Below, in pieces: positions 3,097 through 52,013 of a DNA stretch of 64,000 nucleotides; the stretch's first letter is position 1, and each line of letters begins with the position of its first letter. Origin of the DNA: Pelomonas aquatica. GTDB lineage: Bacteria > Pseudomonadota > Gammaproteobacteria > Burkholderiales > Burkholderiaceae_C. The notes beneath the pieces are model-generated. The model worked only from the letters and a program-made list of their open reading frames with translations. It searched no databases and was not told the DNA's origin. The stretch is from the NCBI RefSeq assembly GCF_026712205.1, contig NZ_JAPPUW010000013.1, positions 1 through 64,000 of the forward strand, in the 5' to 3' direction. The position numbers and the translations under genes are program-made.

Positions 3097-4344
3097 ATGA
3101 GCCAGCCGAAGATCGGTTTGGCCCTGGCAGGCGGAGGCCCACTGGGCGCCATCTATGAAGTTGGCGCCCTTTGTGCTTTGGAGGAGGCCATCGAAGGCCT
3201 GGACTTCACCGCCTGCGACGGCTACATCGGCGTCAGCGCGGGCGGCTTCATCGCCGCCGGCCTGTCCAACGGCATGACGCCGCGCCAGCTCTGCGCCGCC
3301 TTCATCGAGAACAACGCCGAGCCGCCGGACCGCTTCGACCCGGCCGACCTGCTGGAGCCCGCCTGGGCCGAGTTCGGCCAGCGCCTGCGCCAGCTGCCGG
3401 CCCTGCTGGCCCATGCGGCGCGCGAGGTGTTGCTGGAGGGCCGCTCCCTGCTCGGCGCCGTCGAGCGCCTGGGCCGCGCGCTGCCCACCGGCCTGCTGTC
3501 CAGCGAGCGCTTCGGCGCGGCGCTGGAGCGCGTGTTCGCCGTGCCGGGGCGCAGCAACGACTTCCGCAGGCTGCGCCGCCCCCTCGTCCTCGTCGCCACC
3601 GACCTCGACAGCGGCGAGGCCATCCCCTTCGGCACGCCGGGCTGGGACCATGTGCCCATCTCGCGCGCCGTGCAGGCCAGCGCCGCGCTGCCGGGCCTGT
3701 TCCCGCCGGTCGAGGTCGACGGCCACCATTTCGTCGACGGCGCGCTAAAGAAGACGCTGCACGCCTCGGTGCTGCTGGACCGTGGGCTGGACCTGCTGAT
3801 CTGCCTCAACCCCCTCGTGCCCTATGCGAGCGACCGCCACTCGCCGGCCCGCGAGGACCGCTCGCGCCGCGCCCGCGACCTGGCCCGCAAGCTCGGCCGC
3901 CCCGGCGGGCGCTGGCTGCGGCCCGGCATCCCGCGCCTCGTGGACGGCGGCCTGCCGCTGGTGCTGTCGCAGACCTTCCGCTCGCTGATCCACTCGCGCC
4001 TGGCCCTCGGCCTGAAGGGCTACGAGCTGACCCACCCGCAGACCGACATCCTGCTGTTCGAGCCCGACCCGCACGATGCCGAGTTCTTCATGGCCAACAC
4101 CTTCAGCTACAGCCAGCGCCGCCACCTGGCCGAGCATGCCTACCAGGCCACGCGGGCGCTGCTGCGCGAGCGCGCGGCCGCGCTCGGCCCCCGGCTCGCA
4201 CGCGCCGGCCTGAGGCTGCGCGAAGACCTGCTGGCCGACCTGGAGGCCCGCCTGCTGCCCGTGCCGCGCGAGACCCGCACCGAGCAGGCACTGCGCACGC
4301 TGCGCCGCAGCCTCACGGTTCTTGAGCGGCGCCAACGCCGATGA
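3097..4344 (+). CDS. Patatin-like phospholipase family protein
   Basis: This is a predicted serine acyl hydrolase of 415 residues. It has the glycine-rich oxyanion element AGGGPLGA at 11-18, the nucleophile elbow GVSAGG with Ser47, and the dyad aspartate in VDGA (Asp214). Bacterial patatins hydrolyse phospholipids or neutral lipids; the substrate here is unknown. Position 25 bases behind a phasin gene suggests a lipid-turnover or granule role, which is inference. The C-terminal 180 residues are arginine-rich and helical, without a motif I recognise. No signal peptide is visible, so it is likely cytoplasmic or peripheral to membranes. Confidence 0.88.
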   Translation: MSQPKIGLALAGGGPLGAIYEVGALCALEEAIEGLDFTACDGYIGVSAGGFIAAGLSNGMTPRQLCAAFIENNAEPPDRFDPADLLEPAWAEFGQRLRQLPALLAHAAREVLLEGRSLLGAVERLGRALPTGLLSSERFGAALERVFAVPGRSNDFRRLRRPLVLVATDLDSGEAIPFGTPGWDHVPISRAVQASAALPGLFPPVEVDGHHFVDGALKKTLHASVLLDRGLDLLICLNPLVPYASDRHSPAREDRSRRARDLARKLGRPGGRWLRPGIPRLVDGGLPLVLSQTFRSLIHSRLALGLKGYELTHPQTDILLFEPDPHDAEFFMANTFSYSQRRHLAEHAYQATRALLRERAAALGPRLARAGLRLREDLLADLEARLLPVPRETRTEQALRTLRRSLTVLERRQRR

Positions 4345-4366
4345 CGAAGCCGGGGCATGCCGGGCC

Positions 4367-4391
4367 GAGCGCCGGGCCGCCCCAAGCCGGC
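4367..4391 (+). repeat. Partial copy of a GGGCCGCCCCAAGC-containing dispersed repeat
   Basis: Bases 4369-4388 read GCGCCGGGCCGCCCCAAGCC, identical to 30586-30605 inside murC, and in reverse orientation match the core of the 72-base elements at 41023 and 55208. It lies 22 bases behind the patatin stop codon. Confidence 0.65.
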
Positions 4392-4400
4392 CCGTCAGGC

Positions 4401-4495
4401 GATGTTGACCGGACTCGATGCCCGGTCAATCGCCGTCCCCTTGGGGGACCGACCAGACTCGCTCGCGTTCAGCGACGCGAGGCTGGGCGAGGGGC
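4401..4495. repeat. Cluster of hairpins between convergent genes
   Basis: Three foldable units occur in a row: TTGACCGG (4405-4412) with CCGGTCAA (4422-4429); GTCCCC-TTG-GGGGAC (4435-4449); and an imperfect CTCGCTCGCG/GCGACGCGAG hairpin (about 4459-4482). They separate the convergent patatin and flavin hydroxylase genes and may serve as a two-way terminator. The CCCCTTGGGGG core resembles the unit at 35152-35166. Confidence 0.5.
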
Positions 4496-4504
4496 CTCCA
4501 GATC

Positions 4505-28648: not shown

Positions 28649-29619
28649 TTCCCGTCCAACCTCGCTTGCGAAAGCAGCCACAGGCACAGCTGCGGGTAGG
28701 CTATGCCGACGGCCTTGGCGGCCTTGGGCACGAGGGAGTGCGAGGTCATGCCCGGGCTGGTGTTCATCTCCAGCAGGAAGGGCTTCATGTCGCCCTGGCG
28801 CAGCATCAGGTCGGCACGGCCCCAGCCGCGGCAGCCGAGCAGCCGGTAGGCCTGGAGCACGAGCTGCCGGATCTCGGCCTCGAGCGCGGCCGGCAGCGTG
28901 CCGAACAGGTATTGCGTCGTGTCGGTGTGGTATTTGTTCTCGAAGTCGTAGTTGCCCGCCTCGGCGCGGATCTCGACGACCGGCAGCGCCACCGCGCCAT
29001 CGCCCTGCCCCAGCACGGCGCAGGTGACTTCGGGGCCTTCGATGCACTGCTCGAATAGCAATTCGTCGTCGAATCCTAGCGCCAGCTCGACCGCGCCCTG
29101 CATGTCGGAATAGCCGGCCGCCTTGGTGATGCCGATGCTGCTGCCCTCGTGCGGCGGCTTGACGATGACCGGCAGGCCGAGCTCGTCGGGAATCGTGCGG
29201 ATGCGCTCGCGGGTCAGCTCGGCGCGCGTCAGCGCCAGGTATTGCGGCGTCGGCAGGCCCTCGGCGGCCCAGACGCGCTTGGTCATCGTCTTGTCCATCG
29301 CCACGCCGGAGGCCGTCACGCCCGAGCCGGTGTAGGGGATGCCCAGCCATTCGAGGGCGCCCTGCAGCGTGCCGTCCTCGCCGCCGCGGCCGTGCAGCGC
29401 GATGAAGGCGCGTGCGAAGCCTTCATCCTTCAGCGCCTGCAGCGGGCGCTCGGCGGGGTCGAAGGCGTGGGCATCGACGCCGCTGGCGCGCAGCGCGTCG
29501 AGCACGCCGGCCCCGCTCATCAGCGACACGGGGCGCTCGGCGCTCGTGCCGCCGAACAGCACGGCGACCTTGCCGAACGACTTGGCGTCGATGTTCAGGT
29601 CGATAGGCGTCTTCATCAT
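28645..29619 (-). CDS. ddl: D-alanine--D-alanine ligase
   Basis: Ddl joins two D-alanines for the muramyl pentapeptide. The 324-residue ATP-grasp enzyme shows [19 protein letters not shown] at the N terminus, [20 protein letters not shown], the substrate block [34 protein letters not shown], and the metal/ATP block [10 protein letters not shown]...[15 protein letters not shown]. All are complete. The ATG at 29619 overlaps the murC stop (ATGATG). It corresponds to the DdlB position of the E. coli dcw cluster. Confidence 0.97.
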
Positions 29620-31085
29620 GCCGACGCTCCTTGCGAAAAATATTGGGCGACGAGGCGCGGCAGCGCGCTCATCGAACCGGCGCCCATGCCGATGACGACG
29701 TCGCCGTCGCGGGTCAGCGCGGCCAGCGCGGCCGGCATGTCGGCCACCGCCGCGACGAAGTGCCGCGTGCCGACGGCATCGGCCAGCGCCTGGCCGGTCG
29801 CGCCGGCAATGGGCGCCTCGCCGGCCGAGTACACCTCGGTCAGCAGCACGACATCGGCGCCCTGCATCACGCGCACGAAGTCGGCGAAGCAGTCGCGCGT
29901 GCGGGTGTAGCGGTGCGGCTGGAAGGCCAGCACGAGGCGGCGGCCCGGATAGGCGCCGCGCGCGGCGGACAGCACGGCGGCCATCTCGACCGGGTGGTGG
30001 CCGTAGTCGTCGATCAGCGCGAAGCGGCCACCATCGGCGGCCGGCCATTGGCCGTGCTTCTCGAAGCGGCGGCCCACGCCGGAGAAGCCGGCCAGCGCCT
30101 TCAGGATGTCGGCATCGGCGCAGCCCAGCTCGGTCGCGATCGCGATGGCGGCCAGCGCGTTGCGCACGTTGTGCTCGCCGGCCAGGTTGAGCAGCACGTC
30201 GATGTCGGCCTGGCCTTCGCGCCGGCAGGTGAAGCGCATCTGCGCGCCGGCCAGCGCCTGCACGTTGACGGCGCGCACGCTGACGCCTGCGGACAGCCCG
30301 TAGCTGACGACCGGCCGCTCGATGCGGCCGAGGATGGCCCGCACGCCGGCATCATCCGCGCAGACCACGGCCGCGCCGTAGAAGGGCATGCGGTGCAGGA
30401 ACTCGATGAAGGCCTCGTGCAGCTTCTCGACCAAGTGCCCATAGGTGTCCATGTGGTCCTCGTCGATGTTGGTGACGACGGACAGCACGGGGCTGAGCTT
30501 CAGGAAGGAGGCGTCGCTCTCGTCCGCCTCGACGACGATGAACTCGCCGCGGCCCAGGCGCGCGTTGGCGCCGGCCGCCGGCAAGGCGCCGGGCCGCCCC
30601 AAGCCTTGCCCGCCCCCGTGGGGGGCAGCCTGCGTATCCGCAGGCGTGGGGGCTCCGTACAGTTTGCCGCCGATGACGAAGGTCGGGTCCAGGCCGGCCT
30701 CGACGAGGATGGCCGTGACCAGCGAGGTCGTCGTCGTCTTGCCATGCGTGCCGGCGATCGCGATGCCGCGGCGCAGCCGCATCAGCTCGGCCAGCATGAC
30801 GGCGCGCGGCACGACCGGCACCTGGCGCGCGCGCGCGGCGACGACCTCGGGGTTGTCGGCCGCGACGGCGGTGCTGGTGACCAGGGCCTGGGCGTCGCCG
30901 ATATTGGGCGCCGCATGGCCGATCTCGACGCGCAGGCCGAGGGCGCGCAGCCTCTCGGTCGTCGCGCTCTCGACCGCGTCCGAGCCGCTGACCGCGAAGC
31001 CCAGGTTGTGCAGGATCTCGGCGATGCCGCTCATGCCGGCGCCGCCGATGCCGACAAAGTGCAAACGCTGTACGGCGTGCTTCAC
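29616..31085 (-). CDS. murC: UDP-N-acetylmuramate--L-alanine ligase MurC, with a 27-residue insert
   Basis: MurC adds L-alanine to UDP-MurNAc. Family motifs are [17 protein letters not shown] (9-25), the ATP loop [10 protein letters not shown] (111-120), [22 protein letters not shown] and FQPHRYTRT. The protein has 489 residues, longer than typical betaproteobacterial MurC. The excess is an in-frame insert, about Tyr143 to Pro169, between FVIGGKL and AAGANARLG, two blocks normally adjacent. The inserted DNA (30579-30659) is made of hairpins and shares a 20-base core with a dispersed repeat. All catalytic motifs are intact, so the enzyme is probably active, with the insert exposed as a Gly/Pro/Ala-rich loop. 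Confidence 0.95.
30579..30659 (-). repeat. Repeat-derived insertion inside murC
   Basis: These 81 bases encode a low-complexity loop. On the minus strand they contain GCCTGCG-GATA-CGCAGGC, GCCCCC-CAC-GGGGGC and GGCAAGG...CCTTGCC pairings. Bases 30586-30605 equal 4369-4388 exactly. The length is a multiple of three and contains no stop codon in the murC frame. Confidence 0.72.
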
Positions 31086-41022: not shown

Positions 41023-41094
41023 GCACCCTTCGCGCTGCGCGCTGTCCCGCCAGGCGGGAGCGAGCTTGCTTGGGGCGGCCCTGCGCGACGCTCA
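41023..41094 (+). repeat. 72-base dispersed repeat, copy A (ftsI-ftsL gap)
   Basis: It runs from GCACCCTTCGCGC to GACGCTCA. By my count 60 of 72 bases match copy B at 55208-55279 without gaps. It contains the hairpin CCCGCC-A-GGCGGG and the core GGGGCGGCCC. Its last three bases, TCA, are the stop codon of ftsL read on the minus strand, and its left end lies five bases from the ftsI start, so the element occupies the complete gap. Confidence 0.78.
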
Positions 41095-41355
41095 TGGCGT
41101 GACCCCCGACGCGACGACGGCCGGCGTGATGACGCGCATGCCCAGCCGCTCGCGCGCGACCTGCTCGACGCGCAGATTGGTGGCCTGGGCATGGCGCTCG
41201 GCCGCCAGGCGCTCGGCGTCGGCGGCCAGGCGCTGGCCCTCGGCCCGGGCCTTGTCGAGCTCGGCGAACAGGCGGCGCGACTCGTAGGCGCTGTGCACGA
41301 GCACGACGCCGCTGGCCAGCACGGCCAGGATGAGCAGCAGGTTGAGCTTGGCCAC
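41092..41355 (-). CDS. ftsL: Cell division protein FtsL
   Basis: FtsL is the small bitopic divisome protein that activates FtsWI together with FtsB and FtsQ. It has 87 residues, one membrane helix (about 4-22, LNLLLILAVLASGVVLVHS), and then a periplasmic leucine-zipper coiled coil (about 25-70). It starts with GTG at 41355, four bases after the rsmH stop. Its last codons and stop belong to the 72-base repeat copy A. Confidence 0.93.
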   Translation of the reverse strand: MAKLNLLLILAVLASGVVLVHSAYESRRLFAELDKARAEGQRLAADAERLAAERHAQATNLRVEQVARERLGMRVITPAVVASGVTP

Positions 41356-51467: not shown

Positions 51468-51640
51468 TACGTTCTCCCATTGAACACTTGATGCCTTGGC
51501 AAGGCGCGGCCTGGGCGGGCACGCGCCGGCGCTGTCTCGGCACCGGGCGCTATGGGGTGGCGCGGATTCCTAACGCCGGGATGGTGCGAAATCTAGACCT
51601 TCGCGGGCCGCTTGGCGAGGGGGATATGCAGATTGAAAGA

Positions 51641-52013
51641 GTGAAGCAAGCCGATAGGCCGGATTCTGTGCGCCGCCTTCCCCTTGCGGTTCGGACGGCG
51701 TGACCGCCATTCCTCTGGGCCGGGCATCGCTGCCCGGCTCGGTGCCACCTACCCGCCAGCTCTGCGAGCCGCATCGACGCTGGCCTACTTGGTGTTGCTG
51801 CGCGTAGAGATTGCCCGTTGCACCCGACCCCGTGGGCTGCGCTCACGGTCCCGCAGGGCGAACCCTGCACGTTTGGTCGACTCGTCTCTGTTGCTCTGAT
51901 CCTCGGCTTACGCCGGGCAGCCGTTAGCTGCTACGCCGCTCTGTGCAGTCCGGACCTTCCTCCAGGGCCGTGTTTCCACGCTTGCCCCAGCGGCGGTCTG
52001 GCTTGCTTCACAC
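51641..52013 (-). ncRNA. rnpB: RNase P RNA, bacterial class A
   Basis: This is the catalytic RNA that matures tRNA 5' ends. On the minus strand the 5' end GTGTGAAGCAAGCC (from 52013) pairs with GGCTTGCTTCAC at the 3' end (to 51641), forming P1. The conserved core GGAGGAAGGTCCGGACTGCA lies at about 51969-51950, and the 3' conserved GAATCCGGCCTATCGG stands just before P1. A length near 373 nt is normal for betaproteobacteria. A GATAAT box lies six bases before the inferred first base. Confidence 0.96.

Follow-up and report, generated by a model that had tools for sequence, protein, structure and literature searches.

The murC Gene and Its Insert

The window analyzed here is a stretch of 64,000 nt from Pelomonas aquatica. 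The gene murC, encoding UDP-N-acetylmuramate--L-alanine ligase, was located at 29616..31085 on the minus strand, started with GTG, and specified a protein of 489 aa, which scored 504 bits against the NCBIfam murC equivalog (cut-off 335.1). No second MurC was seen in the genome, since the remaining matches had only 28–39% identity.

Comparison of filled and empty sites revealed an in-frame insert of 78 bp in murC (30579..30656, minus strand), corresponding to residues 144–169. The earlier note on this DNA had counted 27 extra residues (81 bp) at this place; the extra stretch was real, but the net gain in comparison with relatives carrying an empty site was 78 bp, or 26 residues, the rest being one replaced codon (Asn to Tyr at position 143). 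The 26 residues lay between the blocks FVIGGK and AAGAN and were absent from 79 of the 80 named relatives aligned. In agreement with the earlier note, these blocks were adjacent elsewhere: two residues separated them in all 79, and no length variation was found at the site among these proteins. The exception was the MurC of MAG AWTP1-24 (L009; 90% identical to the window MurC), the sole insert holder among the named relatives. The loop was therefore not conserved across many genera; the alignment of close relatives placed it in one diverged congener, all other sites being empty. Within the genus, the murC site was filled in 2 of 19 rows (the window genome and G011) and empty in 17, while nothing resembling murC was matched in the twentieth genome (G019, 83% complete). 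L009 and G011 were taken as one record, which leaves the window genome and one diverged congener as holders of the insert.

The insert splits the motif GGxLxxAGxN, the length of which was constant in the 79 other relatives. At the level of nucleic acid, the inserted stretch folded as three hairpins (−57.9 kcal/mol, z −2.27; 6 of 200 shuffles folded at least as well), in agreement with the fold described earlier.

Structure of the Repeat Family

The identity that had been noticed between the murC insert and positions 4369–4388 was real (100% over 20 bases). A chance match of this 20-mer was ruled out by the count of GGCGCCGGGCCGCCCCAAGC, which, with up to two mismatches, occurred in 36 places of the 5.1 Mb genome versus 2 for the reversed control. 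The 17-nt core CTTGGGGCGGCCCGGCG, with up to one mismatch, was present in 6 to 49 places per genome in the 20 genus genomes versus 0 to 3 in the control. Aligned copies consisted, from the 5′ end, of CCCCCA, a hairpin GCCCCCC-RR-GGGGGC, and two mutually complementary arms on either side of the 17-nt core. The 17-nt core formed a nearly invariant loop, while the sequences of the stem arms mostly differed among copies with their complementarity kept. From CCCCCA to the end of the loop, copies of the murC-copy class measured 63–68 nt in 123 of 124 cases and 73 nt in one, to which the arms are added; an element of this class is about 64–67 nt long between these points.

The copy in murC was matched by the covariance model R1 at 30575..30653 (minus strand) with 74.4 bits and an E-value of 6.2e-11 for the genome, being itself one of the 19 sequences from which the model was built. 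All its parts lay on the minus strand. Hairpin 1 (GCCTGCG GATA CGCAGGC, 7 bp) occupied 30628..30645, and hairpin 2 (GCCCCCCACGGGGGC), with five C-G pairs constant in the 19 aligned copies, occupied 30612..30626. Hairpin 3 was composed of a left arm (GGCAAGG, 30604..30610), differing in sequence among copies, the 17-nt loop CTTGGGGCGGCCCGGCG, the hallmark of the family (30587..30603), and a right arm pairing with the left one (CCTTGCC, 30580..30586). A stable hairpin 1 was typical of copies of 66–68 nt; the same segment hardly folded in the 63–65 nt class, so that "three hairpins" was discarded as a trait of the whole family.

The 19 aligned copies demonstrated two-sided changes at all seven pairs of hairpin 3. 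In the tested structure, consisting of the arms and hairpin 2, 94.7% of cells were paired versus 69.0% in shuffles, while slid versions reached no more than 61.4%; the covariation score was 0.619 versus 0.132 in shuffles. None of 500 shuffles reached the paired fraction or the covariation score of the real alignment. Two of five covariation measures did not exceed the shuffles (two-sided pairs, 7 versus 6.5; pair types, 19 versus 18.2). The alignment was not fitted to the tested structure, and the pairs were placed after the copies had been inspected. At least six of the seven pairs of hairpin 3 were kept in 117 of 124 copies.

No Rfam family lay over any scanned copy. At the gathering score, the only match in the window was RNase P RNA of class A (51639–52009, minus strand), with no family over the murC repeat; a search of 10 copy-bearing loci at E ≤ 1 gave two matches, neither overlapping a copy.

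Two further copies of the loop were found in the window. The one sharing 20 bases with the murC insert (4370..4386, minus strand) belonged to a longer subtype of the repeat (approximately 4330–4500), lying behind what we take to be the patatin gene. In this subtype, an extra hairpin (CGGCGAT...CATCGCC) was present, and the same 17-nt loop was set in a GGGCCGG/CTCGGCCC frame; many copies of it occurred in the window genome and in congeners. The third loop copy, with one mismatch, was located at 41069..41085 on the plus strand within a weak R1 match (41023–41098, E 0.0093). It represented another subtype with GTCCCGCCAGGCGGGAGCGAGCTTG ahead of the loop.

Distribution and Genomic Placement

A genome search for the hairpin unit had been proposed in the earlier note. 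With the covariance model at E ≤ 0.001, 39 matches were detected in the window genome, and each of the 20 genus genomes, among them that of the window, contained 6–53 matches, which amounted to 415 in all. With stricter filters, 15 of 150 genomes of the order (the window genome included) were matched at E ≤ 1e-6. In four more distant genomes of the same order (G048, G107, G137, and G157), model matches were arranged head to tail with a spacing of approximately 78–91 bp.

The placement of copies was analyzed in a set of 125 distinct copies, which comprised the 30 top-scoring of 52 copies (E ≤ 0.01) in the window genome together with high-scoring congener copies and was thus not a random sample. 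From one set of 75 matches, eight were left out (five repeated copies, L285, and the second matches of L396 and L399), and one further duplicate was dropped. A copy was regarded as lying stop-to-start when one coding-like frame ended with its stop codon no more than 16 nt before the element and another had a possible start codon (ATG, GTG, or TTG) no more than 22 nt after the loop. In the sense orientation, 65 of the 125 copies had this position; in the antisense orientation none had it, and nine copies demonstrated one of the two signals. The stop alone was found for 17 further copies, the start alone for 15, and neither for 10. The first possible start codon was mostly 8–12 nt past the loop.

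An in-frame position within a gene was predicted for 18 of the 125 copies, including 6 of the 30 from the window genome, on the basis of an open frame and third-position G+C. A coding-like frame ran through 25 copies, of which seven (L302, L303, L337, L357, L368, L384, and L385) were dropped owing to a short frame or a position at the gene start. A loop-like 17-mer within a gene at L144 was also left out, as no element surrounded it.

The same junction held an element in five congeners (L306, L308, L309, L325, and L357). In L357, the gene following the element begins with MLLMIDNYDSFTFN and is presumably trpG/pabA-like. Some of the junction copies look old and stable.

The view that a dispersed, mostly intergenic repeat stands in frame in murC was supported by the filled and empty sites and by the covariance model match. 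The explanation that we consider very probable as a whole is that the murC insert belongs to a family of small, structured, mobile repeats in the Pelomonas/Roseateles group and is carried as a tolerated passenger within the gene. The usual home of the repeat is the gap between co-directional genes of an operon, from just past the stop codon to just ahead of the next start. Occasionally a copy would land inside a gene, where it could survive if the added length were a multiple of three and the frame free of stops; the host gene would then encode an additional peptide, which is probably disordered. That the spread is due to mobility is our inference. Because the arms differ from copy to copy, the family is not accounted for by simple copying of a single master.

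The main competing explanation assigns a function to the RNA itself. The element would be a device for operons with its stem, loop, and right arm placed immediately ahead of the start codon, in which hairpin 3 hides or presents the downstream ribosome-binding site and couples translation to the preceding gene; mobility would only spread the device, and in-gene copies would be strays. We regard this as a serious candidate that nevertheless falls somewhat short of being probable. It agrees with the strand-specific stop-to-start placement (65 of 125 copies in the sense orientation and none in the antisense one), with the distance of 8–12 nt that mostly separates the loop from the first possible start, with the covariation of stems and not of the loop, and with the presence of the element before the trpG-like start at the same junction in five congeners. 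The right arm opened with GGAG, moreover, in 13 of the 45 non-gene copies displayed. Most of the right arms displayed, however, lacked an initial GGAG, and 42 of the 107 non-gene copies missed one or both of the position criteria. The sense bias could also stem from a target preference or from selection for start and stop codons, and the device itself is predicted from sequence and placement.

Copies inside Other Genes

Empty sites in relatives were read for five genes of the window genome, murC among them. The gene topB, encoding DNA topoisomerase III, contained an additional 81 bp (19 of 20 rows, from 18 genomes, were empty); dapC contained 63 bp (18 of 19 rows empty), and the gene for an M13 peptidase 78 bp (14 of 16 rows empty), the latter insert being common to the window genome and G005. 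A pccA-like gene for the alpha subunit of propionyl/acetyl-CoA carboxylase contained 81 bp; of the 15 rows run (L447–L461, with L462–L466 left out), one was filled, 13 were empty at 72 nt, and L461 had another length. The inserts of topB, dapC, and pccA were found in the window genome alone among the rows read. All five measured insert lengths (63–81 bp) were multiples of three.

The sixth in-frame copy of the window genome, in a gene for an EamA transporter (L356), and the copies in congeners were placed by open frame and family model. According to Pfam and NCBIfam, the congener hosts were miaA, recG, rimI, kdpA, and the genes for an alpha-E/ATP-grasp protein, a SecA-like protein, an ABC exporter, a GH97 hydrolase, a tryptophan halogenase, and a POR-domain oxidoreductase, presumably of the indolepyruvate type. 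L371 was kept as an in-gene copy with no Pfam family. The copy of L377 (G016) stood antisense and in frame in the ABC exporter, at a position presumably flanked by the ABC signature motif and the Walker B strand.

Judged by open frame and family model, in-frame copies occurred in 15 gene families besides murC, with empty sites for four of them, and murC is not special as an insertion host. In-gene copies were found in both sense and antisense orientations and in several reading frames; therefore, no particular peptide is being spread. Common to them were the absence of a stop codon and, in the five measured cases, a length divisible by three. The 67–68 nt class accounted for 12 of 17 in-gene copies versus 16 of 107 others (Fisher p 5.8e-6), in a test where the copies were partly dependent (that of M13 was counted twice) and which the dapC copy, not measurable in this way, did not enter.

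Origin and Constraint of the murC Copy

In the dcw region, the genome nearest to the window species was G005 (91.3% identity), which has no murC insert; the identity with the insert-bearing G011 was 86.6%. The dcw tree joined G011 to the window species and G005 with weak supports (0.60 and 0.71). Because the nearer G005 is empty and the more distant G011 filled, loss, recombination, or transfer must be invoked. Judging by these sequences, the murC insert would be about as old as the split of its holders, in which case G005 later lost or replaced it, or else would have moved by recombination. Within the passenger explanation, the murC copy would have been kept since the split of the window species from one congener, and inheritance by descent is the history that we infer.

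Acquisition of murC by one holder from the other through transfer or recombination, instead of descent, is rather unlikely. The patchy presence of the insert against the dcw tree would fit it, as would the shift of best partners from one part of the dcw region to the next, which points to recombination within the genus. Over 80 nt, the two versions of the insert were 91.2% identical, and the adjoining 200-nt blocks had identities of 0.90 and 0.92. The latter values, however, were not above those with other congeners.

No indel and no stop codon separated the two versions of the insert, and five of their seven changes fell on third positions, which says that the frame has been kept. Codons 143–169 contained three synonymous and four non-synonymous changes, giving a dN/dS of 0.51 versus 0.11 and 0.14 in the flanking parts; with seven changes only, this suggests that the inserted peptide is less constrained than the rest of MurC. 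The insert-bearing MurC, like the other host proteins, is predicted from the gene. In the AlphaFold model, residues 140–175 had pLDDT below 50, and the loop is predicted to be disordered; these values are too low to place it at the surface or away from the active site.

The earlier note had proposed that the repeat was domesticated as a surface loop, which would place a useful peptide under selection. The insert is indeed kept, with its frame, in two species whose MurC proteins are approximately 10% apart, and 22 of its 26 residues are identical between them. The proposal was nevertheless not supported and appears most improbable: the dN/dS in the insert is approximately 0.5, the predicted loop is of low confidence, the motif GGxLxxAGxN is split, the nearest genome lacks the insert, and the other gene families hit share no obvious function. 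The peptide is probably neutral, with the copy as a tolerated passenger.

An assembly or binning artefact can be dismissed as having next to no probability, since the diverged congener also holds the insert: although both holders are draft assemblies and the second is a metagenome bin, they carry diverged versions in the same place, both in frame, and in-frame inserts are present in four more genes of the window genome for which relatives show a clean empty site.

Probable Mobility and Target Sites

A Y1 transposase (Y1_Tnp) was encoded in all 20 genus genomes (40 matches), with open frames of approximately 230–320 aa at L417–L436; it could be a REP-associated transposase. Of the 40 matches, 30 were scanned as loci, and none had a model match at E ≤ 0.05, for which reason a RAYT-like mobilizer is not claimed. 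One 14-mer resembling hairpin 2 was noted at the Y1 transposase locus L440.

No consistent target-site duplication was found for the 125 copies, but similar flanks gave a weak duplication signal in a minority. The score between left and right flanks was at least 8 for 16 of the 125 copies versus 3.6 expected from shuffling, and a shared run of at least 8 was present in nine versus approximately 2.2 expected; start and stop codons contribute to both values. Pairing of the right arm with the left flank was in small excess (mean 4.12 versus 3.64 shuffled).

As the arms vary between copies, an arm may be remade at each insertion. The element would then be a mobile translation cassette with one part near the stop codon and, near the start codon, a stem that closes the fixed loop and has an arm made anew to pair with the adjoining target, sometimes the ribosome-binding site. 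We consider this idea doubtful; the pairing of right arm and left flank, with its small excess, is the direct test of the remade arm. If true, the idea would imply a guide-like insertion mechanism and a repeat by which operons are rewired and essential enzymes accidentally gain new peptides.

A group II intron match (RF00029, 44.8 bits) was located in L006 at 2149–2220, no more than 700 bp from a repeat copy.

Comparison with Known Repeats

The palindromic elements of Rickettsia (RPEs) are the closest parallel of the murC repeat. Together with those of Wolbachia (WPEs), they are described as small palindromic repeats dispersed between genes and also present in frame within conserved protein genes; RPEs of Rickettsia are approximately 100–150 bp long and form long stem-loops with terminal inverted repeats, and an RPE-bearing guanylate kinase was active with a changed substrate affinity (PMC2229807, PMC3767692). 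The comparison was made by description. Like these elements, the murC repeat is both intergenic and in frame within conserved genes (65 of 125 copies at junctions and 18 in genes). Unlike RPEs, it has a class of 63–68 nt plus arms with inserts of 63–81 bp, although the same loop also occurs in longer subtypes, and it is found in betaproteobacteria, with a fixed loop, variable arms, and a stop-to-start home in operons.

In-frame repeats in conserved genes, best known from Rickettsia, are now found in betaproteobacteria with genomes of 4–6.6 Mb. We presume the hosts of the Pelomonas/Roseateles group to be free-living. The host genes include murC, dapC, topB, recG, and miaA, which illustrates how an old protein can acquire a new piece from a small repeat. 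With filled and empty sites available in congeners, the cost of such inserts is directly testable.

REPs tagged with GTAG/CGTC are presented as short palindromes situated mostly between co-directional or convergent genes and occasionally inside genes; their families are defined by stem sequences together with a terminal tetranucleotide tag, the GTAG kind is associated with a transposase, and in some other genomes REPs have also given rise to in-frame repeats inside genes (PMC3733652). The murC repeat resembles REPs in being short, palindromic, and mostly intergenic, with some copies in genes. In contrast to REPs of 20–40 bp with a conserved stem, its copies are longer, the arms of hairpin 3 vary at all seven pairs, and hairpin 2 alone is constant; in contrast to GTAG REPs, the 30 scanned Y1 transposase loci were free of repeat copies.

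We found no description of the murC repeat among the papers listed from open-licence PMC text, nor did its literal sequence give a match there. The fixed loop, variable stem, and stop-to-start placement point to an element type of which these listings showed no description.

In-frame fusions of small non-autonomous repeats with host genes are also reported for ERIC/RU-1, RU-2, RU-3, and the Correia/NEMIS MITEs (PMC2229807, PMC2759123). Target-site duplications and terminal inverted repeats are known for several of these families (PMC2229807); beyond the weak signal in a minority, a consistent duplication of this kind was not found for the 125 copies of the murC repeat. In Neisseria, one size class of a repeat occurs in genes and another almost only between them (PMC2229807, PMC2759123), and the 67-nt and 64/65-nt classes of the murC repeat resemble this division.
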